Below, in pieces: positions 6,281 to 26,488 of a stretch of 33,096 bases of DNA. This DNA comes from Desulfamplus sp. (lineage in GTDB: Bacteria; Desulfobacterota; Desulfobacteria; Desulfobacterales; Desulfobacteraceae). Both the position numbers and the translations under genes were made by a program. The notes beneath the pieces were generated by a model. It was not told where the DNA came from. It was given only the letters and a program-made list of their open reading frames with translations, and ran no database searches. The stretch spans positions 1 through 33,096 of the forward strand of contig JADFZJ010000042.1 in NCBI GenBank assembly GCA_015232555.1, given 5' to 3'. The first letter of the stretch is position 1; each line of letters starts with the position of its first letter.

Positions 6281-9208
6281 ATGTTCAACATCTTTAAAAT
6301 AAACATTATCAGCCCGATAAAACTAAAGCTGCTGGTATGTTCTGCAATCTCTGCCTTGCTGCTGATGCCTTTGCTATATCTTGTAATAATATCAAGGCTC
6401 TCTTTTTACGAAATTACACTTAAAACTTTTATATTTTTAATGGTAATATGGATATTGCAATCTCTGCTTTCTGTTTTAGCATCTAAAAATTTAAGGCTTT
6501 CTGCTGCTATCGGCTCTATTTTTTTTATCCTTTTTTTTATTACAACATGGATAGAGGCTGGACTAATTCATTTTACTGGAGAAGGTTTCTCTCCCGCCTT
6601 TTTTTATCATCTTAACTGGCACAGCTCTTTTATTGCATTTAACACTTATAAACTATTCCCAGCCGCTCTTGTCATATCATTATCTATATCTGTTCTAATA
6701 CTAAAAAAATATCTTGAGTTTGAAAAAAACAAAAATACAAATAAATTCGCTTATTCTGACGTAGGCAGGACTGGTTTTAAAAAAAGCAAGATATTGATAT
6801 ATTTATCTATCATCCTTTTATCTCTACCCAATACGCCAATATGGGGTTTAAGTAAGGGGCTATGGCAATACTATTTTGCTGAGCGAATCAAAATTAAAGC
6901 AAACAGTAATGATAGAAAAATACTCTCAAATATAGGAGTCCGCTTAATTTCAGAAGACAAATCTAATATAGCTGCCTCTCTTCCGCCGTCACCTGAAAAT
7001 CTAATTCTAATTTTTCTTGAATCCATGAATTTTCAATTTGTAAATAATCTGAATTTTCCAAATCTAACCCCATCGCTGAATCGTTATTCAGATAGATTTA
7101 CACTGCTGAAAAATCACATAAGTACAGAAAATGCGACTCTTCCAGCGATGATTTCAAGTTTATGCGGAATTGTGCCAGACTACTCAATGGGGAATGACAC
7201 CTTAGTATATGAGGAGTCAGTATATAAAAATCTTGCCTGTTTTACTGATATCTTGCGATCCGCAGGATATTATCAGGTCTATATGGGCGGGGCAGAAAGC
7301 TCGTTTGCCAGCAAGCAGGATTTTTTAAAGCAGCATGGATACCACGAGATCATAGGCTGGGAATATTGGAAAAACAAAGATCATTACAAAGATGATGATA
7401 GGCATTCATATTGGGGGCTTTACGATTCTGATCTCTTTGGAGAGGCAATAAATAAAATGGAGGAGTTAAAATCCCTATCTCCTTTTAACTTTACCCTTTT
7501 AACCTTAAATACACATCTTCCTGGTTTCTTTTCAAATAGCTGTTCAGGTTATTTTGACGATGCTCCAAACAGCACAAACAGCGATATGCTTAATGCCATT
7601 TACTGCTCTGACGCAGCATTAGGAAGATATCTTGATTGGTTAGATAAAAAGGGCTTTTTTGAGAACACAACCATTGTAATTGTTGGTGATCATAAGATGT
7701 TCAACCATGAAGTTACAAGTGAAATTCTTGGGGATAAGATAGAAGATCAGAGAATCTTCGGCATGATCCACTCCCCTGGTGATAATCTTCCTAAAAGCAT
7801 TGATGAACGAACAGCACCTTATGATATAGCATCAACCATACCTGAACTATTAGGAGTAGAACACAATATTGAGTTTTCTATTGGGCAGTCTATGCTTGAA
7901 CCTATTTCTAAAAATCGTTTTATACTTGATAGGGATATGCAAAATAATGCTGGAAACTGTGATCCATTCAATATTGAGCTTCCAATAGATACTGCCTCTT
8001 TTTCTCCATGTGAGTATAAGAGGTTGATATCAATATTAGATCATAATCTATCAGATTTTAGAAGAGCAGAGCCGTCAATTGTGCAAAAACTTGAGCGTGT
8101 TGTGTTGCTCTCTTCAACAGAAGAAGATAAAGCTCCTTCTATTTTTTTAGATGACATAGAGCAGCTTGAATATATTTCTAAAGATGGTATCAGAAACGAT
8201 TTAAGCCATAATGGAATTTACTGCGTAATACTTGCTTCTGACGGAAAGGTAAAAGAGAGAAGTTTTTACGATGTAACCCAGCCTTTAGACATGGATAATT
8301 TTTTAGATATGCTTGAAAATTTAACATTTGGAGATTGGCTGTTTATGGTTCATAAAGGCGATATTTTAGGACAAATGCCGGCTTCTGTTCATTATCTTTT
8401 AGAGAGAATGGGCTGGAGTATACCGCTGAATCTGCTTGGCGGCACGAGTTCTGTTTTTATCTCAAGGCATGGTTCTGATCCATATCATGCTGTTTTTAGC
8501 TGCACATCTTATGATAATAGGTCTATCGATAATACATTGTTTAGTAGTAGCGATAATCAAGAAGGTAATACTTTAAAAAAAGAGTTGATGTTTGATGATT
8601 TTAAAGGATTGCTTACTTTGATATCTCCAAAGGATAAAAAAGAAAATATATGGAATGATCCTAAATTTATTTCAATGTTAATTTATGACGAAAATTCTAT
8701 ATACAGAAATGCAGCGGCAAATATAAATATCTGTGGGTTTGGCAGAGGAGCAAGTTTGTTCTCTTTTTTTTACGAACCAGTAGAGTTAAAACGAGGAATC
8801 AATCTGCTGATATTTTCTAACTTATGGGAGCTTACAGCCGATTTAAACTATGATTTTTATGAGTCTGATAAAGATTCTGAGCAATTGGCTAAAGCTCTTG
8901 CAAGTGATACTTCAAAATTTGATATGATAGTTGCAGTTGCAGTGCACGATGATGCTAAAGCCAATCTTCCAGAATCTGTTATTCAAGGATTGAAAAAAAG
9001 GGGAGCAGAAAAAATTGATGAATTAGAGTTCAGGTCTCCCTATCTGTTTGTATTTCATACAAAATATGGAGCGGTATATGAGGAAGTCGGAAAGAGTGGT
9101 GAATGTATTGCTGCTGACAGAGGTAAAATAATAAAAAAGGTTCTCTCTTTTGCAGAAAAAACAAAAATAATTATAAATGAAGCAGAAAAACAGAACAATG
9201 ATAAATGA
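6281..9208 (+). CDS. LTA-synthase-like membrane sulfatase-fold transferase with two ILEI/FAM3-type domains
   Basis: A 975-residue membrane protein. Five hydrophobic segments (about 13-35, 45-66, 74-92, 120-142, 165-185) anchor an extracytoplasmic alkaline-phosphatase/sulfatase-fold domain at about 230-540. Likely metal and catalytic residues are Glu247 (ILIFLESMN), a threonine nucleophile in STENATLPA (Thr282 or Thr286), His412 (NTHLPGFF) and Asp470/His471 (VGDHKMF). Such enzymes move glycerol-phosphate or phosphoethanolamine from a lipid to a glycan. Two regions, about 640-735 and 815-930, then each follow the ILEI/FAM3 pattern: a GIN-hydrophobic strand, a basic or acidic FD/YDFY turn, a D/N-F-hydrophobic helix, G/F-D-hydrophobic, a D-D-A-like turn, an L-x-x-x-G helix end and an FR-aromatic strand. 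The second copy is the clearest (RGINLLIF, AVAVHDDAKANLP, ELEFRSPYLFVF). I know no published protein with this exact layout. The start lacks a strong ribosome site, and the end overlaps the next ORF. Confidence 0.85.
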   Translation: MFNIFKINIISPIKLKLLVCSAISALLLMPLLYLVIISRLSFYEITLKTFIFLMVIWILQSLLSVLASKNLRLSAAIGSIFFILFFITTWIEAGLIHFTGEGFSPAFFYHLNWHSSFIAFNTYKLFPAALVISLSISVLILKKYLEFEKNKNTNKFAYSDVGRTGFKKSKILIYLSIILLSLPNTPIWGLSKGLWQYYFAERIKIKANSNDRKILSNIGVRLISEDKSNIAASLPPSPENLILIFLESMNFQFVNNLNFPNLTPSLNRYSDRFTLLKNHISTENATLPAMISSLCGIVPDYSMGNDTLVYEESVYKNLACFTDILRSAGYYQVYMGGAESSFASKQDFLKQHGYHEIIGWEYWKNKDHYKDDDRHSYWGLYDSDLFGEAINKMEELKSLSPFNFTLLTLNTHLPGFFSNSCSGYFDDAPNSTNSDMLNAIYCSDAALGRYLDWLDKKGFFENTTIVIVGDHKMFNHEVTSEILGDKIEDQRIFGMIHSPGDNLPKSIDERTAPYDIASTIPELLGVEHNIEFSIGQSMLEPISKNRFILDRDMQNNAGNCDPFNIELPIDTASFSPCEYKRLISILDHNLSDFRRAEPSIVQKLERVVLLSSTEEDKAPSIFLDDIEQLEYISKDGIRNDLSHNGIYCVILASDGKVKERSFYDVTQPLDMDNFLDMLENLTFGDWLFMVHKGDILGQMPASVHYLLERMGWSIPLNLLGGTSSVFISRHGSDPYHAVFSCTSYDNRSIDNTLFSSSDNQEGNTLKKELMFDDFKGLLTLISPKDKKENIWNDPKFISMLIYDENSIYRNAAANINICGFGRGASLFSFFYEPVELKRGINLLIFSNLWELTADLNYDFYESDKDSEQLAKALASDTSKFDMIVAVAVHDDAKANLPESVIQGLKKRGAEKIDELEFRSPYLFVFHTKYGAVYEEVGKSGECIAADRGKIIKKVLSFAEKTKIIINEAEKQNNDK

Positions 9209-12200
9209 AAATGAGTTGATTCCATATCAAGAGTCTCCTATCCCTGCAGGACCATACCTTGTGTTTTCTCCCCACCCAGATGATGAAACTCTTGGTATGG
9301 GCGGCACAATTGCCCTTGCGGCTAAAGCCTGGATTGATGTTTATGTTGTTTTTATCACTGACGGAGGAAAGGGCGGAGACCCTGATATAAGAAAAAAAGA
9401 GGCTCAAGCAGCCGCTGATATAGTTGGAGTGAAAAAGATTTTTTATCTGAATATGCCTGACAGAGAGGTTTCTCTTATACCTTTTCCTGATCAGGCTGTT
9501 GTCGAAATTTTGGAACAGATAAAACCCAAGACAATTTTTCTTCCATCATTTCAGGAGAACCACCCTGATCACAGAGCAACTACAAATCGTGTTTTGTCTC
9601 TGATTAAAAACTTCAACCGATTTAAAATTATATCTCCCTCTAAAGATTTACAGCCCTGTATTCCTAATAATTCTACAGAAGAGTTGAAGTTCCAATTATG
9701 GTTTTACGAGATTAACAGACAAGGCGAAATAAACAGGCTGATTGATATATCTTCTATGCTGGAGATAAAGGAGTCGGCAATTGAGTGCTACGCAAGCCAG
9801 CTTCAGCAGTTGGATTACAAGGTTCATGCACTTTGTCTAAACTTTATGAGAAGCATAACGCTTGATGTAAACACTAACTATGCAGAAGGTTTTTGGTGTC
9901 ATGATGCAGCAGAATCAATATCACCTGAGCAGTACTATTTTAGCCGTTTCTCAAATTACATACCAAACATACCAAATAGTGAATATTCAAATCATGAATT
10001 AAGGCATTTAAGAGATAAAACAAGCAGCCACGCCGCAATTGTTAAACAATACCGCAATTTTTCTGAATATCTTGCTAAAGATATTAATGATAACAATAGA
10101 GAAATAGAGCTTCTTAAAAAGCAAAAAGATGAATATCGTTCTATTATCCATCAGTTTGAACAACAGATATCTGAAATATCTCTGTCAAAATCCCATAAAA
10201 TTGTATCAGAATATATAAAATCCATAACAAAGCTGCGTAACTTTTTTAGAAAACTTAGAAAATTTAGTAAACTGAAAGATAGAAATTGTATTGACTCATC
10301 ATCTCCTGATCTTAATAATTTATCTGTCTATAAAATTTCTAAAAATTTAGATTCAAAGTTTCTAAAAGCTGCGGATTTAGAGCAAACAGAAGATGTTAAT
10401 ATCAATCCAGACTTAAATATTACACATATAAAATATCCAATTATCAGATTGCACTCAAACGATCAGATTGATGCGATTAATATTATTGATGCTGTTAATT
10501 CTAATATTTGCGATAGCAGCATAAATATAGACAACTCAATATTGATATCTGAACATAACGAAGATAATAAAATTGTTCCTCTTTTCAACAATAAGCCTGT
10601 TGGATTTTTAGTTGAGTGCAGTAAAGATAATTTAGCCCGTATTGATCTTTTTATGGCAACTTACATGAGGATAAATCCAGGGGTTTTGATATTATCCATC
10701 TATGAAAATAGGGGTGATAATTACAAAAATAGAGATTATGAGAATATTGATTCTAATAATATCAATATAAATAATCGAATGCTTAATGAGAATATCGATT
10801 TTAATAATACTAATCTAAATAATCCAATACTCAACCAAGAGCCGTTACGTAGTTGTAGAGTAATCTCTCCTGCAATTATGGATAACAGCTTTGTCTCTTT
10901 TGAGTTTGATCCAATTCAAGATTCTCATGCTAAAACATTCTATGTTACTTTATCTCTTACAGATGGAGTTGAGGATTTCTGCTTAGGACTTTGGACAAAT
11001 ACATTTCTAAATATTACTCCTGCTCAACGATATCATAAGTGGATTGAACAACATGAAAAATCAACTTCATCAATTGCTTCTATCAACTCATCAATATCTA
11101 TTGGAGATAATACTTATATTGCGATTATTGTGCCAGTCTTAAGTCCGCTTTATTCATCAAATTCACCTTACTCATCAAGTTCGCTTTACTCATCGCATGA
11201 CAATATTAAAATGTTTTCAGAAACTATTGAGTCAGTTTTTAAACAGTCCTATCCCCAATGGCAGATGATAATTTTGGCTGATAGAGAATCAGACTCAAAA
11301 AATTTTTATTCTCAATATACACACGACCCAAGGGTTGCTGTTGATTATAATTTAAAAGATGAGAATATTTCTGATTGTTTGAATAGAGCCATTGAAAGCT
11401 CAGAATGCAGATACTTTCTTGTTCTAAAACCTTTTGACACGCTTGCACCTCACGCTCTTGATGAGTGCATAAAGATTTTGAATCAATTTCCTGATACAGA
11501 TTTAATTTATAGTGATGAAGATAAAATATCTAATAATCGTGATATTGATGTTCATAATGATGATGTTGTTGGCGGTGATGGTGCTGATGATAACCCTGAT
11601 TCAGATACGACTATTCGTCTCGCTCCTTTTTTCAAGCCTGATTGGTCTCCAGACCTTTTTTTGTCGTTTATGTACATCGGGAATTTGGTTCTTTACAAAA
11701 AAGAGATGTTTCAAAAATCAGGCAGTTATTCTCAAGAGCTTCAAACAGATATTGAATATGACACAATTTTGAAGATAAGTGAGTTGACACAAAATATTGT
11801 CCATATTCCAAAAATACTATACCACAAAAGAGAGCTTTCTTTAGAGAATGGGAATAATATCACTCTCTCCTCTGCTGTAAGTTATGGGGAGAGGCTTTAC
11901 GCTACATCTCATAATGTCATTAAAAACGCGATAAAACGAAGAGGAATTGAGGCTGATGTTTATACTGGGCTGACAAAAAATTCGTTCAGAGTCTCATATA
12001 GATTTAATACCAATATACTTGTCTCAATAATCATTCCATTTAAAGATAACCACGAAGTTCTTCATACCTGCATCAAAAGCATATTAGAAAGAACAAAATA
12101 TAGAAATTATGAAATTATCTGCGTAAATAATCAGAGCAAAAATAGAGAAAAGTTTTTAGAGTTAGAAGGAGATAGATTTGAGAATAACTCGTTAAAATCT

Positions 12201-12860
12201 CTTTTAAATAGTTCATTCACTAATATAAATCTTACTATTCTTGATTATGACAAGCCTTTTAATTACTCAGCAATCAATAATTTTGCGGTAAAACACACAA
12301 AAGGAGATGTTCTGCTTTTGCTAAATTCTGACACAGAGGTTATTTCAAGTGATTGGCTCAACGCAATGTTAGAACACGCTTGCCGTAATGATGTAGGTGC
12401 AGTTGGAGCAAAACTATACTATGTCAATGACACAATACAACATGCAGGAGTTGTGTTCGGTGTTGCTGGAGTTGCGGGGCACGCTTTTAAACATGTTAAT
12501 AGGTATCAGACAGATTATTATTATGGTTTGCCTTGTATGGTGAGAAATGTAAGTGCGGTTACAGGTGCTTGCATGATGGTTAGACGCTATGTCTTTGATG
12601 AAGTTGGAGGCTTTGACGAAGAAAATTTTCAGGTAAGCTATAATGATCTCGATTTATGCCTAAAGATACAGCAAAGAGGCTATAAAATTATATATACTCC
12701 GTTTGCAGAGCTTTATCATTATGAATCTTACAGTAGGGGTTACTCTTTTGATAAGACAGCAACGGATAACATTAATGGTAAATGGGGAAACTCTCTTGAA
12801 AGAGACCCTTTCTATAATCCTAATCTTACAATATATAAAGAAGACTGGAGTCTTAAATGA
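9177..12860 (+). CDS. PIG-L/LmbE deacetylase fused to two GT2 domains
   Basis: A 1227-residue multi-domain protein. Residues 25-230 are a PIG-L/LmbE deacetylase: the zinc motif SPHPDDE (His33, Asp35, Asp36) and NHPDH about 95 residues later provide the ligands, so it should N-deacetylate a GlcNAc-like sugar. A coiled coil spans about 300-345, an Asn-rich spacer 350-470, and a beta-rich domain (GFLVECSKDNLARIDL) 475-640. GT2 domain A (650-900) has lost its aspartates: RYFLVLKPFDTLAP stands where the DhDD motif belongs. GT2 domain B (950-1220) is intact, with LLLLNSDTEV near 1048 and SYNDLDLCLK. Domain A holds two low-complexity inserts, the YSS repeats and an Asp/Asn stretch after SDEDKI. An ATG at 9198 (residue 8) is an equal start candidate: it shortens the 32-bp overlap with the previous gene to 11. 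It ends in a 4-bp overlap with the next gene. Confidence 0.85.
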   Translation: MKQKNRTMINENELIPYQESPIPAGPYLVFSPHPDDETLGMGGTIALAAKAWIDVYVVFITDGGKGGDPDIRKKEAQAAADIVGVKKIFYLNMPDREVSLIPFPDQAVVEILEQIKPKTIFLPSFQENHPDHRATTNRVLSLIKNFNRFKIISPSKDLQPCIPNNSTEELKFQLWFYEINRQGEINRLIDISSMLEIKESAIECYASQLQQLDYKVHALCLNFMRSITLDVNTNYAEGFWCHDAAESISPEQYYFSRFSNYIPNIPNSEYSNHELRHLRDKTSSHAAIVKQYRNFSEYLAKDINDNNREIELLKKQKDEYRSIIHQFEQQISEISLSKSHKIVSEYIKSITKLRNFFRKLRKFSKLKDRNCIDSSSPDLNNLSVYKISKNLDSKFLKAADLEQTEDVNINPDLNITHIKYPIIRLHSNDQIDAINIIDAVNSNICDSSINIDNSILISEHNEDNKIVPLFNNKPVGFLVECSKDNLARIDLFMATYMRINPGVLILSIYENRGDNYKNRDYENIDSNNININNRMLNENIDFNNTNLNNPILNQEPLRSCRVISPAIMDNSFVSFEFDPIQDSHAKTFYVTLSLTDGVEDFCLGLWTNTFLNITPAQRYHKWIEQHEKSTSSIASINSSISIGDNTYIAIIVPVLSPLYSSNSPYSSSSLYSSHDNIKMFSETIESVFKQSYPQWQMIILADRESDSKNFYSQYTHDPRVAVDYNLKDENISDCLNRAIESSECRYFLVLKPFDTLAPHALDECIKILNQFPDTDLIYSDEDKISNNRDIDVHNDDVVGGDGADDNPDSDTTIRLAPFFKPDWSPDLFLSFMYIGNLVLYKKEMFQKSGSYSQELQTDIEYDTILKISELTQNIVHIPKILYHKRELSLENGNNITLSSAVSYGERLYATSHNVIKNAIKRRGIEADVYTGLTKNSFRVSYRFNTNILVSIIIPFKDNHEVLHTCIKSILERTKYRNYEIICVNNQSKNREKFLELEGDRFENNSLKSLLNSSFTNINLTILDYDKPFNYSAINNFAVKHTKGDVLLLLNSDTEVISSDWLNAMLEHACRNDVGAVGAKLYYVNDTIQHAGVVFGVAGVAGHAFKHVNRYQTDYYYGLPCMVRNVSAVTGACMMVRRYVFDEVGGFDEENFQVSYNDLDLCLKIQQRGYKIIYTPFAELYHYESYSRGYSFDKTATDNINGKWGNSLERDPFYNPNLTIYKEDWSLK
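10740..10835 (+). repeat. 48-bp in-frame tandem duplication in the deacetylase/GT2 gene
   Basis: Copies at 10740-10787 and 10788-10835 are identical at 39 of 48 bases. They encode ENIDSNNININNRMLN and ENIDFNNTNLNNPILN. The period is 16 codons, so the frame is kept. It forms most of an Asn-rich loop inside the beta-rich domain that precedes the GT2 modules. Confidence 0.88.
11145..11198 (+). repeat. 18-bp in-frame tandem repeat, three copies
   Basis: Three 18-bp units encode PLYSSN, SPYSSS and SLYSSH. They interrupt the first loop of the inactive GT2 domain A, directly after the IIVPV strand, where related proteins have a short turn such as Y-N-T/P. Confidence 0.85.
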
Positions 12861-16725: not shown

Positions 16726-18141
16726 TTGGATAGAGTTTCAATCATAATAATTAACTATAATGGTGCTCAGCATTTAGAAGAGAACCTACTCTCTTTGAGA
16801 CAACTTGATTATCCTCAAGACTATATTGAATTAATAGTATTTGATAATGGCTCAAAAGATAACTCTATTGAAATTATAAATAAGTGCTATCCAGATGCAA
16901 AAATTATAAGAAGCAACTGCAATACTGGTTTTGCTCAACCTCACGCGATAGCTTCTAAAGAGGCTACTGGTAATGTTCTTGCATTTTTGAATAACGATAT
17001 GAAAGTTGATTCCTGTTGGTTGAAAAATGGGATTTCAATGCTCAAAAGCTCAGAAAATATTGTATGCGTCTCATCTAAAATTATGAACTGGACAGGAGAT
17101 AGTATTGATTTTTGCGGAGGAACTCTTCAATACCTTGGTTTTGCAGATCAGTTTCATGATGATAGTATTAAAAATGGAGATGAGATTCTATTTCCCTGCG
17201 GCGGCTCAATGTTTATTTACAGAGATGTTTTTATTGAGGCTGGCTTCTTTGATGAGGATTATTTTGCTATTTTTGAGGATGTTGATTTAGGCTGGCGTTT
17301 GTGGGTTATGGGATATCGTGTTGTGATGGCAACAAATTCAATTGTTTATCATAAAGGGCACGGCACGCTTGATACAAAAAAAGAGTCAAAAAAGCGGTAT
17401 CTTATGCACCGTAACGCCATGATGACCTTAATAAAGAATTATAGTGATGAAAATCTGAATCGTATTCTTCCTCTTGCCTTAATATTTGCAGTTAAAAGAT
17501 CGCTTCTATTCATGGGAATAAATAAAAAATCATACTATTTTTGGGAGGCAGATTTAGAGGATAGCACGCTTGATAATAGTAGTAAAATTTTTGAACAGAA
17601 AGCGGACAACCTCTCTAATAAAGCTTTGTCTAATAAAAACGTTCCTGATAACTATGAAGAGGCTTGTATTCATATTGCTGCTCTTGATGATGTATTTACC
17701 AGTTTTAAGGCATTGAGTGAAAAAAGAGAGCATGTCCAATCTATGAGAAAAAGAGCTGATGAGGAGATTTTTCAACTTTTTAAAGACCCTTTTCGCAATA
17801 TAATGGGGTATCGTGATTACCTGTGGAACGAGGTATCTCTTTTTGGAAAATTTGCCTTAGATGATGTTTTCAAATGCTCTAAAGCGTATAGTCGCCGTGT
17901 GGAAGATGGCAATTATCATGCACGGCAGATGATGGAAGAGATGGTTGATAAATGCCGCTGTAATAAACCAAATACATTTTTATCTCAAAATAGTGATAAT
18001 AACGTAAATTGTGAACAGGTTATTTTAAATAACAATTTATCTTTATCAAATGACAATTTATTAATTAGATTTATAAGGCATGTCCAAAATCATGGATTAT
18101 TGCAGACAGGTAAAAAAATGGTTAATAGGCTTTTATCTTGA
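16726..18141 (+). CDS. GT2 family glycosyltransferase with TTG start
   Basis: A 471-residue protein. The GT-A domain occupies about 1-270: VSIIIINYNG, IVFDNGSKDNS, the metal motif NND (about 89-91) in LAFLNNDMKVD, FCGGTLQYLG, and FAIFEDVDLGWRLWVMGY near 183-197. It resembles dTDP-rhamnosyl- or galactosyl-transferases of the NND class. The C-terminal 200 residues are charged and mostly helical, with an Asn/Ser-rich patch near 280-310 and another near the end. They are not recognised. It starts 45 bases after the previous GT2 stop and is followed 21 bases later by the second palindrome copy. It converges on the mutase gene. Confidence 0.86.
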   Translation: MDRVSIIIINYNGAQHLEENLLSLRQLDYPQDYIELIVFDNGSKDNSIEIINKCYPDAKIIRSNCNTGFAQPHAIASKEATGNVLAFLNNDMKVDSCWLKNGISMLKSSENIVCVSSKIMNWTGDSIDFCGGTLQYLGFADQFHDDSIKNGDEILFPCGGSMFIYRDVFIEAGFFDEDYFAIFEDVDLGWRLWVMGYRVVMATNSIVYHKGHGTLDTKKESKKRYLMHRNAMMTLIKNYSDENLNRILPLALIFAVKRSLLFMGINKKSYYFWEADLEDSTLDNSSKIFEQKADNLSNKALSNKNVPDNYEEACIHIAALDDVFTSFKALSEKREHVQSMRKRADEEIFQLFKDPFRNIMGYRDYLWNEVSLFGKFALDDVFKCSKAYSRRVEDGNYHARQMMEEMVDKCRCNKPNTFLSQNSDNNVNCEQVILNNNLSLSNDNLLIRFIRHVQNHGLLQTGKKMVNRLLS

Positions 18142-18162
18142 TTTCTATCTTTATAGAATTTT

Positions 18163-18188
18163 GTAGAGACGATGGTGTGCGTCTCTAC
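18163..18188. repeat. Dispersed palindrome (copy 2, partly decayed)
   Basis: GTAGAGACG at 18163-18171 pairs with CGTCTCTAC at 18180-18188 around an 8-base centre. The right 12 bases (GTGCGTCTCTAC) are identical to copy 1 at 15633-15660; the left arm differs near the centre. It lies in the 123-bp gap between convergent genes and may also act as a two-way transcript end, but no T-run is present on either side. Confidence 0.75.
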
Positions 18189-18264
18189 TCTGACACAAAA
18201 TGGTTATCTATTGAGAAGTTCGATATTATTCATCCTCGGTATTATTCATTTCTAATTACAATTA

Positions 18265-19791
18265 TCAAAATTTTATCTTTGATGGGTGCGGTGAGTTTAC
18301 GATATCAGGGTACCAAATCGTCAACTCCTCTCCCTGATAAACAGCCTTACCAGCAGCCTCCACGCCCTGCATGAACGAGTGATCCATATTCCCGACCTCG
18401 TAACGCCACGCCCCAAATCTTCCTCTGGATAAAATCCCTTTTTCCTCTAATTTTGCAAGCATTGGAAAAAGAACTCTGTTTCTATCGCTACTTGGTGTGG
18501 GATATCCCTTTTCTACCCGCTTATGCCATGTGTGGTTTATCTGGCTCTTATCTTTAATCAACCGTGTATTAACTGCTCCTTGTATGACATCTTGAATTAC
18601 GGTTTCTTGATTGACAGGTTTCATTGGGCTTTCGCTCACTTCAAACATTAATGACCATGATGTTTTGATGTCTGGCACGTTATTGGGTGAGTAGTTGCTA
18701 AACACAGTAACACGATAGAATGGGTTATCGTTTTCAGGAAAATATATCCAGCACTTATCTTTTAGATGATCAGGAGGATTGCCCTTTAATCCAAGACCCA
18801 CAACATGAGTTGATGAGTGTTTTAACGCTGGAGACACTTCAGCAACTTGCTTATTTTTATCTTTAATATTTTCTTCCAAAGCATTTGTCGTGGATATTAT
18901 CTCAAACTTGCCTGCTGAATCTGACGTTGAAATAAAATTTGAGATAAGAGAGGTTAAGGGAATTGTGCTGATTAAAATATCGTAATGCTCTATTGAACCA
19001 TCGTTAAATTCAACAGTTTTTTCATCAACATTGACCGTTTTAAGTCCAGCGTTTAGATGAATTTTATCTGTTGGAAGATGCTGTGCAACCTTTTCCCATA
19101 TAGCACCAGTTCCGCCGAATTTTGGAAATCTAAAGCGTGAATTTGGTCCCCAGCCTATGTCATCTTTATCAAATATGTGGTTATCAATAATTCGTTTTAT
19201 ATCTACTTTTGCCACACGCTCGCCAACCCAATTATGGCTTAACTCCTCAACAGGATATGCCCACACTTTATAGTTGTATGGTCGCAGAAAATACTTTGCA
19301 AGACCGCTGCCAAAACTGGCATCAATCCAGTCTCCAAAGTGTTGTAAAGGTAGGTTTCCCGTCAATTTTGATTGAGATGCTGATGTTGATGAAGGTTGGT
19401 TGTTTTGAGTAGAAAAAGGTGCGGTTTGAATATCAATAAGACCATGCAGACATTCGCTGAAAATCTCTTTCGGCAGTCTGTGGATATTGTTCTGAATAGG
19501 GTAAGGGATAAATCGATTGTTCATCCAGACCCATGCACTTCTGTCATGGAATAGCCACTCTTTATCTTTATCCATAACCGTATCCATCACACGGTCAAAA
19601 TATGGGTAGTGGCTGAACAGAACGTGTCCGCCGATATCCCACCAAAACTCCTCGCTATCTTTAAATGATGCTGAAAGTCCGCCGTAATAGTTATTTTGCT
19701 CATAAACAGACCAATTTTTATGCCCAAGTTCGTTTAAACGCCACGCTGCACCAAGCCCGCATGGTCCTGCTCCGATTATAATAATATTCAT
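18265..19791 (-). CDS. glf: UDP-galactopyranose mutase, eukaryotic-type
   Basis: A 508-residue FAD enzyme expected to interconvert UDP-galactopyranose and UDP-galactofuranose in the cytoplasm. The N-terminal Rossmann motif is GAGPCGLGAAWRL (7-19). Throughout its length it follows the fungal/protist mutases rather than the shorter (about 370-390 residue) classical bacterial Glf: GGHVLFSHYPYFD with His56, YPIQNNI, the RPYNYKVWAYP block with Arg170, GWGPNSRFRFP, FGGTGAIW, SSTHVVGLGLKG, NPFYRVTVFSNYSP with Arg360, SESPMKPVNQET, GYPTP with Tyr430 and GRFGAWRYEVGNMDHSF with Tyr464. These match, from memory, His63, Arg182, Arg327, Tyr419 and Tyr453 of Aspergillus fumigatus UGM. Two Ser/Asn-rich inserts lie near 126-146 and 280-315. 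The ATG has AAGAAAGAG upstream. It is divergent from a GlfT2-like gene, which strongly supports the role. Confidence 0.93.
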   Translation of the reverse strand: MNIIIIGAGPCGLGAAWRLNELGHKNWSVYEQNNYYGGLSASFKDSEEFWWDIGGHVLFSHYPYFDRVMDTVMDKDKEWLFHDRSAWVWMNNRFIPYPIQNNIHRLPKEIFSECLHGLIDIQTAPFSTQNNQPSSTSASQSKLTGNLPLQHFGDWIDASFGSGLAKYFLRPYNYKVWAYPVEELSHNWVGERVAKVDIKRIIDNHIFDKDDIGWGPNSRFRFPKFGGTGAIWEKVAQHLPTDKIHLNAGLKTVNVDEKTVEFNDGSIEHYDILISTIPLTSLISNFISTSDSAGKFEIISTTNALEENIKDKNKQVAEVSPALKHSSTHVVGLGLKGNPPDHLKDKCWIYFPENDNPFYRVTVFSNYSPNNVPDIKTSWSLMFEVSESPMKPVNQETVIQDVIQGAVNTRLIKDKSQINHTWHKRVEKGYPTPSSDRNRVLFPMLAKLEEKGILSRGRFGAWRYEVGNMDHSFMQGVEAAGKAVYQGEELTIWYPDIVNSPHPSKIKF

Positions 19792-19902
19792 TTTTATTCT
19801 CTTTCTTAAATTATGTAAGTTTTTTTATATACTTGATTTTTAAGGACTAAAGATATATCAAAAGTGCTTTTTAATAAAGAAGAAATGAGCGTTTAACTTT
19901 TC

Positions 19903-19932
19903 TTGACTACTTTAATTTTGAAATTCTATTTT
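19903..19932 (+). promoter_or_regulatory. Predicted promoter of the galactofuranosyltransferase operon
   Basis: TTGACT at 19903-19908, an 18-base spacer, and TATTTT at 19927-19932. It lies 42 bases before the GTG start in the 183-bp gap between the divergent mutase and transferase genes. The -10 element sits at the edge and loop of a perfect inverted repeat. Confidence 0.5.
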
Positions 19933-19947
19933 TAAGAGAATTTCAAA
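19917..19947. promoter_or_regulatory. 11-bp perfect inverted repeat over the predicted -10, candidate operator
   Basis: TTTGAAATTCT at 19917-19927 and AGAATTTCAAA at 19937-19947, separated by nine bases. The spacing of arm centres is 20 bp, two helical turns, as expected for a dimeric regulator on one DNA face. It overlaps the predicted -10 and start region and could also control the divergent mutase gene. As RNA it would form an AU-rich hairpin in the leader. No regulator gene is in the window. Confidence 0.5.
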
Positions 19948-19959
19948 GCTGATTTTAAT

Positions 19960-19965
19960 AGGGAG
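19960..19965 (+). promoter_or_regulatory. Ribosome binding site that fixes a GTG start
   Basis: AGGGAG lies nine bases before the GTG at 19975. The next in-frame ATG is ten codons further on and would cut into the N-terminal domain. Confidence 0.75.
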
Positions 19966-19974
19966 CAAAAAACA

Positions 19975-22050
19975 GTGGTTAAAAGATATCATGAATGGAT
20001 TAATATGATTGCCTATCCAAATTTTGATGTCGCTTTTTTAAGTGATAAATCTCTTTTTTGGCGTATTGAAGCAAACCACCCATTTCATACAGTTATAAAG
20101 AGTGAAGAGGTTTTAAAGATAAACAACTACTACCATGAACCTATTATTATAAGAAACGGATTGTGGGGAAGCAGGATTTTTCTTGAACCTAAACAGCTAT
20201 ATTCAATTGGTATTAAATATAGATCAAATATTCGTCTATATATGGGTTTATACTATCACGGTTCAAATATACCTGTAAAAAATTGGGTTCTTAATCCTAC
20301 TGTAGATAATCAATCTTTAGATAATTTAAATAATCAAGCAGTAGATTGGAAAGATTATTTTTATATACAGGATAATTTTGATACTAATGTGATTGATATT
20401 AATTCAAAACCTCTACACCTTAAGATTATAATCCCTGATACTGGGGGCGAATTTATTGAGATTTCAGAGCTTTTTCTTGTAAGGCATGAAGATATAGAAA
20501 CTGTTAAAATAGATATAGAATCAGGGTTAAATGCAACACCTAACGATTCAAATCTTCCAGAGATTGCAGTTGGAATTGTGACATATAACAGAAAAAATCA
20601 TATTTCAGCACTTCTGAACCAGATGAAGAGCATTAACTATCCTGCAGATAAACTAAAAATTTTTGTTGTAGATAATGCATCTACAGATGGAACAGATACC
20701 CTTTTAGAAAAAGAGTTTCCTGAAGTTAATGTATTAAAAAACAGCGAAAATCTTGGCGGTTCAGGAGGTTTTAACCGATTTTTCACCCACCTTGCAAGTA
20801 TGGATAAAGAAGTTCCCCCATTTGGCTGGCTTATTGATGATGATGCAGTGGTTGATAAGAATACTCTGATATATCTTGTAAGAACAATTATAAATGATGA
20901 TTCAATTGCAGTTGCAGGCTCTGTAATGATGGATTTAGAAAACCCATCTACTGTTTATGAAGCTGGCGGTGATCTTTTTAAGGATAGTTTTGGTTGGAAT
21001 GCAAATATTTTACATACAGATGCTTCAAATTTACTGCACGTTAATGAAAAAACATGGGAATCTGGTTATGCTGGAGCATATTCACTGCTCTTTAGAACAG
21101 AACTTATCCATAAAGTCGGCATCTGGCGGAACTATTTTTTACATGTAGATGATTGTGAATGGAGCTTGAGAATTAAACGACTTACAGGAAAAAGGGTTGT
21201 TATTGCCCTTGACTCTCTTATCTGGCATGTTCTTCAAGGGTCAAAAAAACCGTTTACAACATTAAGATACTATGAAACAAGAAATTTTCTTGATTACTTT
21301 TCAGGTTGTAAAAGCGTAGAAACGAGTTACTTAGATAATACTCCGTCAGGAGTTAGTCTGACTGAGCCTACCTGCTCAGAATATGATAAATCTCAATATG
21401 TAGATAAAAAGCCTTTGCTGAAAGTTATGATCCAAACAACGCTTATGGGTCTAAAACAGCTTGTAATTAAAAGAGATGATCTTTGCCATTTTCACATAAA
21501 AGGGATTGATGATTTTTTTGAAGGCAGATTTGGTAAACAGCCTTTAGAACGCTCTGCTCTATTTTTTCCTGATATAAAATCTCTGTTTGATGAATATAAA
21601 AATGATCAAAACAATAGAGGCAGATATCCTAAAAAAGCCTTTATCGTAAGAGAGATAAACAGATATATGAATGATGGCGTTGATTATGAAGGTGATATAA
21701 TATCTAAAATACGAGAGATATCTCCGCAAACTGTTATTGTGGAAGCATCAACGCATCACAATATCAGAAATCCGTTTCTGTTAAAAATGGTGGTCATGGT
21801 AAAGATGGTTATAGCTTTTTTCTTTCCATCAAAGGGTATTGTTATACTGCCATTTTGGAGTGAGTCTGTTATTCCTAACAACATTGCAAAATATACAGCA
21901 GTGTTTGAAAATGGGCAGTATTCACTTTATAAGGCAAATCGCATTAAAGCTGTTGGCAATACTTTGAAAATACTCTGGAAAAGCTCTTTAAATGCTCTTA
22001 AAATCGTCAGAAATAAATTTAACCCCAAAGCCTCTCATGTGAGCTTTTAG
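19975..22050 (+). CDS. GlfT2-like galactofuranosyltransferase (GT2)
   Basis: A 691-residue protein (mycobacterial GlfT2 is about 637). Residues 1-180 are a beta-rich N-terminal domain (FWRIEANHPFHTVIKSEEVL) like that of GlfT2. The GT-A domain starts EIAVGIVTYNRKNH near 197, then FVVDNASTDGTD, the LGGSGGFNRF loop typical of GlfT2-type enzymes, the metal site LIDDDA (Asp288-Asp290), LHVDDCEW (Asp392, Asp393, Glu395) and IWHVLQGS (His418). The spacing of these resembles Asp256/258, Asp372 and His396 of GlfT2 (recalled). A helical C-terminal part follows from about 480, with a hydrophobic stretch near 600-625. It should add galactofuranose from UDP-Galf made by the divergent neighbour. Low-complexity inserts lie near 105-120 and 445-475. 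The GTG start is set by AGGGAG. The next gene starts on the base after its stop. Confidence 0.9.
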   Translation: MVKRYHEWINMIAYPNFDVAFLSDKSLFWRIEANHPFHTVIKSEEVLKINNYYHEPIIIRNGLWGSRIFLEPKQLYSIGIKYRSNIRLYMGLYYHGSNIPVKNWVLNPTVDNQSLDNLNNQAVDWKDYFYIQDNFDTNVIDINSKPLHLKIIIPDTGGEFIEISELFLVRHEDIETVKIDIESGLNATPNDSNLPEIAVGIVTYNRKNHISALLNQMKSINYPADKLKIFVVDNASTDGTDTLLEKEFPEVNVLKNSENLGGSGGFNRFFTHLASMDKEVPPFGWLIDDDAVVDKNTLIYLVRTIINDDSIAVAGSVMMDLENPSTVYEAGGDLFKDSFGWNANILHTDASNLLHVNEKTWESGYAGAYSLLFRTELIHKVGIWRNYFLHVDDCEWSLRIKRLTGKRVVIALDSLIWHVLQGSKKPFTTLRYYETRNFLDYFSGCKSVETSYLDNTPSGVSLTEPTCSEYDKSQYVDKKPLLKVMIQTTLMGLKQLVIKRDDLCHFHIKGIDDFFEGRFGKQPLERSALFFPDIKSLFDEYKNDQNNRGRYPKKAFIVREINRYMNDGVDYEGDIISKIREISPQTVIVEASTHHNIRNPFLLKMVVMVKMVIAFFFPSKGIVILPFWSESVIPNNIAKYTAVFENGQYSLYKANRIKAVGNTLKILWKSSLNALKIVRNKFNPKASHVSF

Positions 22051-23250
22051 ATGAATCAGAAGAATATTGAAATACAGTTTTTGCGTGTTATTGCAATTGT
22101 AATGGTTCTAATTATGCACGCTCCAGTTGGAATGCTCCATCAATATGCTGAAAAATTCAGTACTATTATGGCATTTATCCACCCAGCAGTTGGGGTTGAT
22201 ATCTTTTTTGTTATATCAGGCTATTTGATGGGGATAACATTTCTGCATAGGACAGAACTGAATAGAACAAATTTTGACAACACCAGTAATTTGAACAGCA
22301 CTGACGGTAATTTGAACAGTGCCGACAGTAATTTTAACAGTGCTGATTTAAATAAGAATGTTCTTTCTGAGAAAATATCACTTACAGCAAGGTTTTATCT
22401 AAGAAGATTTTGGAGGCTTTTTCCAGCCTCTTTTTTCTGGATAACTGTTACTCTTATAGTTGGAGTGATATCAGGCGATCATGAGATATGGCTGACTAAT
22501 GATTGGCTCTACAAAGCGTGGATAGCTTCTGTATTGTGCTTTAGAAATTTTCAAGAGTCAATCCACCCTACGCATCTTGGATACTATTGGTCTTTGTCGG
22601 TAGAGAATCAATTTTATCTCCTACTGCCTCTTGCGTGGTTTTTTGTTCCTAAAAAGTGGTTTTGGAAAGGCGTTATTTTGATTTGCATTATCTGCATATT
22701 TTGGAGACCCGGCGGAAATGAGTGGTGGCTTTTCAGGTTTGACGGTTTATTAATGGGACTTTTGATATACAAGCTGACAAGAATAGATGCATTTAAAGAT
22801 GCTGTAAGGTTTATGTCTCCTGAAACACGAACTGGAAGATTAATTATGACAGCTTTTTTATGTCTTGCTATACCATCAGTTCCAAATTCAATAGGCGTTT
22901 ATCCTCCTCTTACATGGTCAATTGTGGCTCTGTTATCTTCGATTTTAGTCTCTCAGGCTGTTCTTAATGAAGGTTATATTTACATACCGGAATTTTTAAA
23001 GCAGCCTATTTACTGGCTTGGTGAATTTTCCTACTCTGTTTATCTTTGCCATCTTCCAGTGTGGCTCATATTTAAAGATGCGGTTAAACGTAATCCTGAT
23101 TGGATTGATAAACCATCTATAGTTTTAACAATCGGCGTGGTATCAACAATATCAATATTTATCTGTGCTGCCCTTACCTATTTTTTTATTGAACAGCCTT
23201 GTCAAAAAATTGGATATAGAAAATTAAATCAGAATGTTAAAAATAGATGA
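22051..23250 (+). CDS. Membrane O-acyltransferase, acyltransferase-3 family
   Basis: A 399-residue multi-span protein of the OafA/YrhL family. Arg12 and His23 sit in the first membrane segment (QFLRVIAIVMVLIMHAP), followed by VDIFFVISGYLMG, the basic ARFYLRRFWRLFPASFFW and YYWSLSVENQFYLLLPL. It probably acylates the galactofuranose-containing glycan. Residues about 68-105, between the second hydrophobic segment and the basic segment, are an Asn/Ser/Asp-rich insert made by a 21-bp tandem repeat; related proteins usually have a few residues there. The ATG directly follows the TAG of the GlfT2-like gene with no gap, so the two are probably coupled. Confidence 0.9.
   Translation: MNQKNIEIQFLRVIAIVMVLIMHAPVGMLHQYAEKFSTIMAFIHPAVGVDIFFVISGYLMGITFLHRTELNRTNFDNTSNLNSTDGNLNSADSNFNSADLNKNVLSEKISLTARFYLRRFWRLFPASFFWITVTLIVGVISGDHEIWLTNDWLYKAWIASVLCFRNFQESIHPTHLGYYWSLSVENQFYLLLPLAWFFVPKKWFWKGVILICIICIFWRPGGNEWWLFRFDGLLMGLLIYKLTRIDAFKDAVRFMSPETRTGRLIMTAFLCLAIPSVPNSIGVYPPLTWSIVALLSSILVSQAVLNEGYIYIPEFLKQPIYWLGEFSYSVYLCHLPVWLIFKDAVKRNPDWIDKPSIVLTIGVVSTISIFICAALTYFFIEQPCQKIGYRKLNQNVKNR
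22287..22349 (+). repeat. 21-bp in-frame tandem repeat, three copies
   Basis: Units at 22287-22307, 22308-22328 and 22329-22349 encode the 7-residue pattern NLNSTDG, NLNSADS, NFNSADL (read in the gene's frame). The copies differ by a few bases each. They build the hydrophilic insert of the acyltransferase. Confidence 0.87.
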
Positions 23251-23344: not shown

Positions 23345-26300
23345 ATGAGACTCTATGTGCGTCCAAAATTAGAATCGCTGTTTTACTTGCAGTTACATAC
23401 TACAAAAATGCTCTCTATTTTTGCAGCCTTACTGATTATAATTCCATCAACGGCAATTGCATCAGCTTATAACGGATACTACCACAAAAACACAGGAAGC
23501 GATTTTTCATTCTATGATGCTATGGCTCTATACGGAACTCCTGTTATTGATGGAAATATTGCAGACAATGAGTGGAACAGCTCTTACAGCAGACAGATTT
23601 ATAAATATGACAGAGACGATAATCGTATCAGGTATATGTTTCAGTATGATACATCTAATCTCTATATTCTTATTGAAGTTGATGATGATAAAATCTGGGA
23701 CGATTCACCAGGAGATGTGTGGCAGACTAATCAAGATGATGGAGTTGAGATATACATTGATCCAGACAGTTCGAGAGATAATGTTCTGACAAAAAATGAT
23801 AGAGTGGTTGCCTTTACAGTTACTGGTAAAAAATACAGATTTGATCAGGGCAACAACGCAGGATCAACAGAGTATTACGGAAAGTTTTCTCAAATAAAAA
23901 AAGCAGTTGGAATAAAGGGGAGTGTAAATGATTCATCTAATACAGATATTGGTTATGTGGTCGAAGTTGCAATTCCATGGAGTCATCTTGGCGGAGTTTT
24001 GCCCGCTGTAGTTGGAAGCAGTGCGACTGAGACTATTGGAGCCAACTCTTCTGTAAGCACGTCTTTAAAAGATTATATTTCACTTAACATAATTGTTGTT
24101 GAAGATGATGATGGCGGCTCGCTCAATGTCAATTACGATGAGACAAGATGGAACGAGCCATTTGAAATTGACCGATACTTTAAATGGTTTGGAGACGGGC
24201 TTAATGGACCTGAAAACTATGCTAAAATCTATCTTCTTCCCTCTGCTGACGCTGATAATCTTCCGCCCGCTGCAATAAACGATATCTCTTTTATTGATGT
24301 AAATCCTTTTTCTGCTGTCATGTCTTTTACCGCACCCGCTGACAACTACATATCTGTACAGAGTCAAAGTGCTGCATCTGGCGGGGCTGCTGTAAAATAT
24401 CACATAAGATATTCAAACAATGATGAAATCTCAACAGAAGAGGCGTGGGCATTTGCAACAGTTTTTGAGAACAGATTTATACCTAAAATAGGGGGTAAAC
24501 GAGAAACTTTAAGAATCGCTGGTCTTGAACCTGAAACTGTTTACTACTTTGCTGTAAGGGCTGAAGATGGTGCTGGAAATCTATCTCCGCTTGCAGCAAT
24601 TACTCCAACCAGTAGTACAGCTTTAACACAATTTTCATGCAAAACATCAAAGGCTCCATCAGCTTATGGAAAAGGAAAGATTTATCCATCTCCTGCTGGA
24701 CGTTTTTTCATATATGAAGATGGAACACCATTTGTTCCTGTAACAGAACCAGCGGGTATAACATGGGTTGGTATCAGAGATTTGTATGATTTTCCTTTGT
24801 GGGACGACACATTCAAAAAACTTATCAACTGGCATGAGAGCATTGAAGCGGAATCTGAACTTGCAAAAAATTATATCCAATCTCTTAGTGAAAAAGGTAT
24901 TAATTTTATAAGAATTTTTATTGAGGATTTAGCTTTTGCCCATTCTGGCAACCCTCATGCACCTGAAAAGGGTGTATCATATTTAGAATTTCCAGCAACA
25001 GAGACAGGGAAAAAATATATTAATGAGACTCTTGCGTTTTTAGATGATTTTATGAGTTTATGCGAAGATAATGGAATATATATTACCATAACTCCATTTG
25101 ACACCTATTTTTATAAAGATTATTGGGATTACAACCCCTACAATATCCAAAATGGCGGAATGCTCTCTTCACCTGATGATTTTGTTACTGATACACAAGC
25201 TGTATCTGCCCAAAAAAAGCGGCTGCAAGTCTTATATGATGTAGTTAAAAAACATCATAATTTCTTTGGCTGGGAGATGATGAACGAGTGGGACAACAAT
25301 ACATTTGCATCACAACCGCAAGGTTGGGAAAATTCAAGGATTGAATGGATAAAAGATTTACTTGGATATCTGCGGACAATTGATAAACACAATATGATTT
25401 TTATATCATCAGTAATATGGCAGCCTCAGTTTGAACTTAAAGATTTTGTTTTACTTAGCGACTATTTTGACTTTGTCTGTATTCATAATTACACAAAATC
25501 AGTCAAAGACCCTACATCATCTGGAGATTCAAACTTTTCTATTAGACCTGCATGGGATTCAAAACGACTTATTCAATATATGACAGGAAATACTGTTGAT
25601 TCACGCCCTATTCTTGATTTAGAGTTTGGACCTATCAGCCTTGAGACCTATTCAAAAGATTACACTATTGAAGATGATGAAGAGACATTTCACAATATAA
25701 TCTGGTCGGAATTTGCATCAGGAGCTGCTGGAATGGGCTTAAGATGGCCTGGTAAGACACTTGAGCATAAAGGTCCAAGGCTGTCTGATAATATGATTAA
25801 TTATCAAAAAAATATGGCAGACTATTTTAATCAGACAGAGATTGACTTTAAAAATCTTAACTCTTTTCCTTTTGAACGCCATATAAAAGTAACTGATAAC
25901 AGCTCAAAAGGAGTTATATCAGGCAGTGAAATAAAGAGTCTATCTGAGGGAGTTGTAAAGGTTTTTGCATCATCAAATGGTAAGTCTGGAGTTGTTTATC
26001 TATTCAACTCTAAGGAAAATGTGATCATTAATGCCTCTGTTGAGATCAGTAATCTTTCAGAAGATGGAGAATACATGGTTGAAATTTGGGATACAAGAAC
26101 GGATAATCAGACAATCTTACGTAAATCTGTAGAATCTAAAAACAGGACTCTTACATTTGCAATGCCTCCTTTTGAGAGAGACTATTTTACAGCCTTTTCA
26201 CTAAAAAAGAGTGTTAATCCTTTAGTAATTGCTCCTCCTGTATTGTCCGTCTCAAAATCAGGGCTGCATGTTGATCTAAAATGGACAATTCCTGCTGGTG

Positions 26301-26488
26301 CAGATGGTGTGATTCTCTATTATACACCAGCGGATTTAAGTTATATCGGCTCTATCGATATTGGAAAAACAGCTCTATTGCCTTTAGACCTGTTTCATGG
26401 ATTTGATTACTATGCCTCACTTACTGCATATAGCAAGACAGGCATAACAAGCAGCTACTCAAATCTTGAACGCATAACAATTCCATAG
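23345..26488 (+). CDS. Secreted CBM9 / FN3 / clan GH-A glycosidase-like protein
   Basis: A 1047-residue exported protein. After an unusually long n-region, the signal peptide core MLSIFAALLIIIP ends in AIASA with likely cleavage after Ala41. Residues 55-270 resemble a CBM9/DOMON carbohydrate-binding domain (VIDGNIADNEW, YILIEVDDDKIWDD, DGVEIYIDPD, YVVEVAIPW). A fibronectin type III domain follows at about 305-420 (LEPETVYYFAVRAEDGAGN). Residues 440-820 are a TIM barrel of the GH5-like clan GH-A: INFIRIFIEDL, WEMMNEWD with Glu648 as acid/base, CIHNYT, and LDLEFGP with Glu760 as nucleophile. A beta domain and a second FN3-like module close the protein. It probably trims or remodels a polysaccharide outside the cell, perhaps the one made here. 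AGGATAGGA precedes the ATG. Substrate is unknown. Confidence 0.85.
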   Translation: MRLYVRPKLESLFYLQLHTTKMLSIFAALLIIIPSTAIASAYNGYYHKNTGSDFSFYDAMALYGTPVIDGNIADNEWNSSYSRQIYKYDRDDNRIRYMFQYDTSNLYILIEVDDDKIWDDSPGDVWQTNQDDGVEIYIDPDSSRDNVLTKNDRVVAFTVTGKKYRFDQGNNAGSTEYYGKFSQIKKAVGIKGSVNDSSNTDIGYVVEVAIPWSHLGGVLPAVVGSSATETIGANSSVSTSLKDYISLNIIVVEDDDGGSLNVNYDETRWNEPFEIDRYFKWFGDGLNGPENYAKIYLLPSADADNLPPAAINDISFIDVNPFSAVMSFTAPADNYISVQSQSAASGGAAVKYHIRYSNNDEISTEEAWAFATVFENRFIPKIGGKRETLRIAGLEPETVYYFAVRAEDGAGNLSPLAAITPTSSTALTQFSCKTSKAPSAYGKGKIYPSPAGRFFIYEDGTPFVPVTEPAGITWVGIRDLYDFPLWDDTFKKLINWHESIEAESELAKNYIQSLSEKGINFIRIFIEDLAFAHSGNPHAPEKGVSYLEFPATETGKKYINETLAFLDDFMSLCEDNGIYITITPFDTYFYKDYWDYNPYNIQNGGMLSSPDDFVTDTQAVSAQKKRLQVLYDVVKKHHNFFGWEMMNEWDNNTFASQPQGWENSRIEWIKDLLGYLRTIDKHNMIFISSVIWQPQFELKDFVLLSDYFDFVCIHNYTKSVKDPTSSGDSNFSIRPAWDSKRLIQYMTGNTVDSRPILDLEFGPISLETYSKDYTIEDDEETFHNIIWSEFASGAAGMGLRWPGKTLEHKGPRLSDNMINYQKNMADYFNQTEIDFKNLNSFPFERHIKVTDNSSKGVISGSEIKSLSEGVVKVFASSNGKSGVVYLFNSKENVIINASVEISNLSEDGEYMVEIWDTRTDNQTILRKSVESKNRTLTFAMPPFERDYFTAFSLKKSVNPLVIAPPVLSVSKSGLHVDLKWTIPAGADGVILYYTPADLSYIGSIDIGKTALLPLDLFHGFDYYASLTAYSKTGITSSYSNLERITIP

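Follow-up and report, generated by a model that had tools for sequence, protein, structure and literature searches.

A probable galactofuranose module in Desulfamplus: a eukaryotic-class UDP-galactopyranose mutase encoded divergently from a GlfT-like glycosyltransferase

Here, we describe a divergent gene pair in a 33,096-nucleotide stretch of DNA (the window) from contig C43 of a genome of the genus Desulfamplus (G000; 3.82 megabases, 106 contigs, 96.3% complete). One gene codes for a predicted uridine diphosphate (UDP)-galactopyranose mutase (UGM) of the eukaryotic class and the other for a glycosyltransferase family 2 (GT2) protein that resembles GlfT enzymes. We propose that the two probably form a galactofuranose (Galf) module within a surface-glycan cluster, for which both activities, the sugar, its linkage and the receiving glycan are inferred. 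Both open reading frames (ORFs) had been called in a first-pass annotation of this DNA and were recovered at the same places:

18265..19791, minus strand: predicted eukaryotic-class UGM, 508 amino acids (aa), ATG start (ORF, sequence comparison, model, tree).
19792..19974, no strand: divergent intergenic region of 183 base pairs between the mutase and transferase ORFs.
19975..22050, plus strand: GlfT-like GT2-family glycosyltransferase, 691 aa, GTG start, predicted galactofuranosyltransferase (ORF, Pfam, profile, fold match).

The mutase had been said to follow the eukaryotic enzyme along its whole length, and this was borne out, as were the motifs named for it. In a phmmer search of PDB sequences, the best matches were the UGMs of Trypanosoma cruzi (TcUGM; 4dsg, E 3.4e-138) and Aspergillus fumigatus (AfUGM; 3ute, E 6.2e-130), followed by other flavoproteins at 4e-06 and weaker, and none of the 31 sequences with a match up to E 0.1 is named as a bacterial UGM. 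BLAST identity is 45.8% to TcUGM and 42.7% to AfUGM, slightly below the 47-60% shared by the three eukaryotic UGMs compared in PMC3624792; counted over 453 aligned positions, identity to AfUGM is 47%. An AlphaFold2 model built from a 40-row alignment reached a predicted local distance difference test (pLDDT) value of 85.4 and a predicted template modelling (TM) score of 0.87, with low confidence at residues 136-144 and 300-320. Among the 50 Foldseek matches listed for this model, TcUGM or AfUGM chains take ranks 1-34, with TM-scores of 0.82-0.85 (by query length), and a protoporphyrinogen oxidase follows at rank 35.

When the AfUGM contact residues given in Table 3 of PMC3624792 were mapped onto the mutase through a sequence alignment, 12 of the 13 mapped substrate contacts were identical (AfUGM Y104, F158, Q107, R182, Y317, R327, Y419, Y453, N207, N457, N163 and W167), including Q107, which belongs to the uracil site, and the 200s-flap residue N207; the sole change is AfUGM F106, which corresponds to I99 in the mutase. 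Seven of the 12 mapped flavin adenine dinucleotide (FAD) contacts are kept as well (H63, G62, V64, G456, S461, L46 and R447 in AfUGM numbering). The sites concerned include:

19624..19632, minus strand: GGH histidine loop, residues 54-56 (sequence; aligned to AfUGM G61-G62-H63).
19141..19155, minus strand: GWGPN, residues 213-217, corresponding to AfUGM 203-207 in the eukaryote-specific 200s flap, with N217 at AfUGM N207 (alignment).
19216..19218, minus strand: R192, corresponding to AfUGM R182, diphosphate and galactopyranose (Galp) contact (alignment, family rows).
18712..18714, minus strand: R360, corresponding to AfUGM R327, diphosphate contact (alignment, family rows).

The two glycines of the GGH loop are described in PMC3624792 as unique to eukaryotic UGMs. 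G55 and H56 are present in 92 of 93 family rows, the remaining row being gapped there, and the loop occurs in none of 14 classical Glf rows; it is not exclusive to the class, as four of the 12 distant relatives listed (L033, L036, L039 and L047) also carry it. According to Table 4 of PMC3624792, the UGMs of T. cruzi and Leishmania major are monomers, and the tetramer elements of AfUGM are thus not defining for the eukaryotic class. Taken together, sequence, predicted fold class and contact residues place the window protein in the eukaryotic class of UGMs, its activity being predicted.

The claim that the protein is not a classical bacterial Glf also stands. A tree of 36 rows gathers all 14 classical Glf rows (that of E. 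coli K-12 plus 13 from the phylum of the window's genome) into a single clade (100/100) and leaves the mutase outside it, so that the outcome named beforehand as refuting the first-pass reading, a place inside classical Glf, did not occur; the eukaryote-class rows hold together only weakly in this tree (79/48). The GLF domain PF03275 gave no match in the mutase at E 1e-3 and none in its genome, with the same search positive in 4 of 14 control genomes. BLAST found no significant similarity to E. coli K-12 Glf (E 0.16), and eukaryotic and classical UGMs share 14-18% identity in the enzymes compared in PMC3624792. With 508 aa versus 367 aa for E. coli Glf, the protein also has the additional length of about 100 residues that marks the eukaryotic class.

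For the divergent partner, Pfam places a GT2 domain at residues 195-421, and the following sites can be assigned:

19975..20544, plus strand: N-terminal stretch, residues 1-190, no Pfam match (Pfam, model, kin search).
20755..20772, plus strand: GGSGGF loop, residues 261-266 (sequence, alignment).
20836..20844, plus strand: DDD, residues 288-290, corresponding to GlfT2 D256-D258, metal site (alignment; PMC7168186, PMC11538602).
21148..21153, plus strand: DD, residues 392-393, corresponding to GlfT2 D371-D372, with D393 the expected catalytic base (alignment; PMC11538602).
21226..21228, plus strand: H418, corresponding to GlfT2 H396, metal ligand (alignment; PMC11538602).

The roles of D256-D258, D371/D372 and H396 in GlfT2 are those given in PMC7168186 and PMC11538602. 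In the alignments, the main catalytic residues are present in both proteins of the pair, in line with the first-pass annotation. Its description of the partner as built like GlfT2 holds for the catalytic core, with GGSGGF, DDD, HVDD (residues 390-393) and WH (residues 417-418) all in place. A profile made from the window protein and ten relatives retrieved GlfT2 first from the PDB sequences (3.1e-25 for 4fix, and 7.3e-24), the next other family following at 1.9e-12. GlfT2 is also first by fold (Foldseek, 1.1e-17), a match resting on the confident core of a model from an 11-row alignment with a mean pLDDT of 54.4 and values below 50 for residues 1-190. The same description is not supported outside the core and at one tryptophan pair (see below). 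Neither Glft2_N, the N-terminal domain that had been claimed for the partner, nor GlfT2_domain3 was found by Pfam in the transferase or its full-length relative L175 at a limit of E 10, with most hits weaker than roughly 0.1 being removed by the filtering in HMMER; the controls gave 3.7e-60 (Nocardia) and 6.1e-14 (Rhodococcus) for Glft2_N, and the controls for GlfT2_domain3 gave 1.1e-76 and 2.2e-24. Full-length kin were found in two of 146 genomes of the order, both of one other genus (G045 and G397), and the other matches at 1e-30 or better start near residue 190. Judged by these comparisons, the partner is GlfT-like and not GlfT2: it resembles GlfT2 at the predicted active site and fails the family's domain tests.

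The two genes are linked across the order. Among its 146 genomes, own genome included, 11 carry the transferase (E <=1e-30) and 12 the mutase (E <=1e-50), with both present in 10 (Fisher p 8e-13, which is too small and a guide only, since genomes of one order are related). The divergent arrangement recurs in D. magnetovallimortis (L181); the genes are same-strand neighbours in four further loci (L178, L191, L192 and L193) and lie 5-6 kilobases (kb) apart in two (L179 and L180). One genome, G448, has the transferase without a eukaryote-class mutase, and here a classical Glf (37% identical to that of E. coli) directly adjoins it (L190:10372-12867), which amounts, in this one case, to a swap of the donor-making enzyme class within one module. 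A GlfT-like gene of at least 120 bits was found in 8 of 82 loci, all in the window's clade; as the profile was built from those loci, this holds by construction and is no evidence.

We propose that GalE, for which there is a match elsewhere in the genome (456 bits versus a cut-off of 262), would supply UDP-Galp from UDP-glucose. The mutase would then contract the Galp ring by forming, as the eukaryotic enzymes do, a covalent adduct at N5 of reduced FAD, to give UDP-Galf. UGM needs a reduced flavin (PMC3624792), and in an anaerobe the flavin may be expected to stay reduced. In the next step, the divergent GT2 enzyme would add beta-Galf to a growing surface glycan in an inverting reaction of the GlfT2 type, using the DxD metal site and the aspartate base D393.

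Several points weigh against this reading, beyond the relatedness that inflates the Fisher test. The E-value limits were picked once gaps in the tables had become apparent, and in each genome the first look scored a restricted number of candidates; at a looser transferase limit of 1e-20, 11 of 13 transferase genomes carry the mutase class. Two mutase genomes, G043 and G384, have no transferase match at 1e-30. No GlfT-like gene of at least 120 bits was found in the flanking DNA covered for the 66 loci outside the window's clade, which means that a different transferase, or a different function, has to be assumed for those clades. For the mutase, the residue of AfUGM is replaced at 5 of the 12 mapped FAD contacts (T18, D38, S39, V242 and Q458, the last being M469 in the mutase). 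For the transferase, the two flanking Pfam domains of GlfT2 are missing, and W347/W348 of GlfT2, listed as substrate-contacting in a docking study (PMC6863818), correspond to A368/Y369.

The alternative that survives best, although we consider it unlikely, is that the GT2 transferase handles another sugar and that its place next to the mutase is incidental. The GT2 family is broad, Pfam detects only general GT2 domains in this protein, the cluster contains several further GT2 genes and the tryptophan pair is not kept; however, GlfT2 comes first both by profile and by fold, and the link to a mutase of either class extends across the order. In this context, PamC1 and PamC2 are described in PMC12269835 as GT2 Galf-transferases of low similarity to GlfT2 (22%) that nevertheless make galactans. 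Outside the window's clade, a GT2 cluster (single linkage at 1e-20, representative of 271 aa, L094:9127-9939) lies within 4 kb of the mutase in 29 of the 66 loci and spans ten phylum labels beside the eukaryote-class mutase; we regard it as a candidate Galf transferase of another type.

The mutase class is far from confined to this genus. Matches at E <=1e-3 were found in 17 of 58 near genomes, 32 of 146 genomes of the order and 74 of 297 genomes of the phylum (own genome included in each, and many in the phylum being distant relatives), and at E <=1e-50 in the 12 of 146 mentioned above; PF03275 is above cut-off in 6 of 146 genomes of the order and 25 of 297 of the phylum. Seven of nine other Desulfamplus genomes carry the mutase, and the two without it are 72% and 63% complete. 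Scanning GTDB contigs yielded 532 loci, and the 80 best of these were retained; these 80, on which phylum labels and names rest, carry 15 NCBI phylum labels, one of them archaeal, with some rows unlabelled and with titles bearing old deltaproteobacterial names labelled Myxococcota. The closest named records among them are Desulfamplus metagenome-assembled genomes (MAGs) and D. magnetovallimortis. Carriers are mostly MAGs, but named strains are included (Fibrivirga algicola, Fibrisoma montanum, Fibrisoma limi, Siphonobacter aquaeclarae and Aquirufa aurantiipilula), and the class in bacteria is therefore not merely a binning error. NCBIfam offers for the window protein only PRK07208-type hypothetical models, far below cut-off (165 bits versus 389), and distant plasmid-borne homologues (<=34% identity) are nameless or named FAD-dependent oxidoreductase or NAD(P)-binding protein. 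By sequence comparison, the eukaryote-class mutase is thus a widespread bacterial class that standard annotation misses. No report of such a bacterial family was found by title or abstract in the literature searched, most subscription papers lying outside that search, so that its novelty is unproven. The first-pass annotation saw in the pair a hybrid of eukaryotic and actinobacterial parts; since the class is widespread in bacteria and transferases resembling the partner in its core recur across the order, a special hybrid is not supported. As far as the sequences tell, the combination joins a regional form of a bacterial enzyme class of wide distribution to a GlfT-like transferase that has a domain composition of its own.

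Two viral contigs from IMG/VR, L130 (49.7 kb) and L131 (17.6 kb), carry mutases of 46% identity in an alignment scan; a scan of viral contigs with the single protein confirmed no mutase, and phage records gave three weak matches. An FAD oxidoreductase encoded close to a GlfT2-like gene in Nocardia was considered as a mutase candidate but proved not to be a mutase.

It could also be that the mutase works on another nucleotide sugar, such as UDP-GalNAc or a 6-deoxy sugar, and that the glycan carries another furanose, which we consider less likely still. Relatives of classical Glf with other substrates are known. The superfamily may have changed substrate elsewhere as well: 13 distant relatives (L014, L032-L040, L044, L047 and L048; 24-33% identity) all keep H56, Q100, Y350, R360, R458 and Y464, whereas the position of R192 holds S in six and R in four of them and N468 is kept as N in two of 13; L033 retains all 15 tested residues and L014 seven. 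It is possible that those with a changed R192 or N468 are mutases with other substrates. Against such a change in the window protein, all 15 tested contact residues are kept in 92 of 93 rows at >=38% identity, window included, the other row being gapped at the loop, and TcUGM and AfUGM keep them too. Four of the 25 PF03275 genomes of the phylum (G079, G088, G117 and G263) have weak matches around the cut-off that overlap or adjoin distant mutase relatives, a hint at intermediates between the two UGM classes.

Acquisition of the transferase from Actinobacteria as a genuine GlfT2 is very improbable; the GGSGGF, DDD, DD and H motifs and a similar total length would fit, but both domains present in the actinobacterial controls were not found, and a profile comparison with three actinobacterial GlfT2-like proteins (98.7% probability) aligns residues 155-518 only.

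With regard to the origin of the mutase, the protein set combined the best 80 GTDB loci, loci from the genome searches and the two viral contigs; dropping near-duplicates and rows covering fewer than 400 query residues reduced it from 120 to 106 proteins, and the tree of 85 rows, ten of them outgroup, was obtained by thinning out 23 and adding two eukaryotic sequences, which are the only eukaryotes sampled. The window mutase groups with five Desulfamplus rows (100/100), which nest in a 17-row clade, mainly of Desulfobacterota, without eukaryotes (100/99). The two eukaryotes pair (100/95) and are drawn among bacterial rows, beside Planctomycetota and Gemmatimonadota (93/85, not starred); TcUGM shares 53% identity with a protein from a Schlesneria MAG and matches AfUGM at 219 of 443 aligned positions (49%). 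The viral mutases branch within a 14-row clade holding Verrucomicrobiota rows and others, and support is low (39/33) for the branch that leads to the ten outgroup rows. In approximately unbiased (AU) tests, neither eukaryotes outside all 73 bacterial rows (p 0.111) nor the window clade grouped with the eukaryotes (p 0.168) was rejected, and an ancient bacterial source is one possible history among others. It appears unlikely that Desulfamplus recently received the gene from either of the two sampled eukaryotes, as the window mutase sits inside the mainly Desulfobacterota clade. More generally, we give next to no credence to a recent arrival from a fungus or protist, to which the 47% identity with AfUGM, the unrejected grouping and the sampling of just two eukaryotes lend something, but against which stand the position in the tree, the presence of the mutase in most other genomes of the genus and the even base composition along the window. 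One might speculate, tentatively, that the UGMs of fungi and trypanosomes arose from a broad, largely unannotated clade of eukaryote-class mutases in bacteria and some archaea as their ancestral pool, and that its distant sisters (PRK07208-type, hypothetical, with the loop histidine and several diphosphate residues kept and R192/N468 often changed) are nucleotide-sugar mutases with new substrates.

The pair lies in a contig that, by gene order and domain matches, is a glycan cluster, and 2-kb windows along the stretch have an even GC content of 32-37%. The cluster begins with a minus-strand acyltransferase, a radical SAM protein, a methyltransferase, several GT2 genes and a GNAT-like protein, continues with a sulfatase-domain protein, a PIG-L/GT2 fusion, the mutase/transferase pair and a second acyltransferase, and ends with a CBM9/fn3 protein, a GT4 protein and a large multi-GT2 protein. 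Promoter-like matches in 18100-20100 numbered five against a shuffle mean of 6.1, no excess. Downstream of the transferase lie:

22051..23250, plus strand: acyltransferase (Acyl_transf_3), directly after the transferase (Pfam).
23345..26488, plus strand: CBM9-like plus fn3 protein (domain matches; kin in G045 and G397).

Kin of the CBM9/fn3 protein, 51-52% identical, adjoin the transferase in G045 and G397 (L175:11-4906; L176:1-4383), the same two genomes that carry its full-length relatives. Two further proteins of the cluster each combine two kinds of domain. At 6281-9208, a 975-aa protein joins a sulfatase domain with an ILEI (interleukin-like) domain matched in two stretches, and at 9177-12860 a 1227-aa protein fuses a PIG-L deacetylase domain with a GT2 domain, its ORF overlapping the preceding one by 32 bases.

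The UGMs of eukaryotes are regarded as a separate class and as targets for drugs. The large bacterial set belonging to this class, of which the window protein is unmatched by Pfam GLF and far below the NCBIfam cut-off, may serve as a reservoir for tracing the origin of the fungal and trypanosome enzymes, and its environmental homologues could be used for work on mechanism and inhibitors. Our results also suggest that Galf is under-predicted in such bacteria, and the order-level data place the same transferase type beside either mutase class, in the one case of G448.

Among known systems, the mutase is closest to TcUGM (4dsg) and AfUGM (3ute), which it resembles in its alignment along the length, the GGH loop, the WGPN of the 200s flap, 12 of 13 substrate contacts and the predicted fold; it departs from AfUGM in the 5 of 12 FAD contacts, including M469 for Q458. 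Classical Glf (E. coli K-12 glf, PF03275) shares the same predicted reaction and, in G448, adjoins the same transferase type, whereas the window mutase has no significant similarity to it, lacks PF03275 and lies outside its clade. With GlfT2 (4fix; Nocardia brasiliensis 9dtp), the transferase shares a core with GGSGG[FY], DxD, the DD base and the H metal ligand, but Glft2_N and GlfT2_domain3 were not found in it and it has A368/Y369 in place of the W347/W348 pair. The Kingella kingae galactan synthases PamC1 and PamC2, as described in PMC12269835, are likewise GT2 UDP-Galf transferases encoded with a mutase and carrying DxD and DD motifs. In contrast to the window mutase, their partner PamB was overlaid on the E. 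coli enzyme (PMC12269835), and we liken PamC to our transferase by description, not by sequence; the spacing from DxD to DD is 103 residues in PamC (239 to 342; PMC12269835) and 104 in the window transferase (288 to 392).

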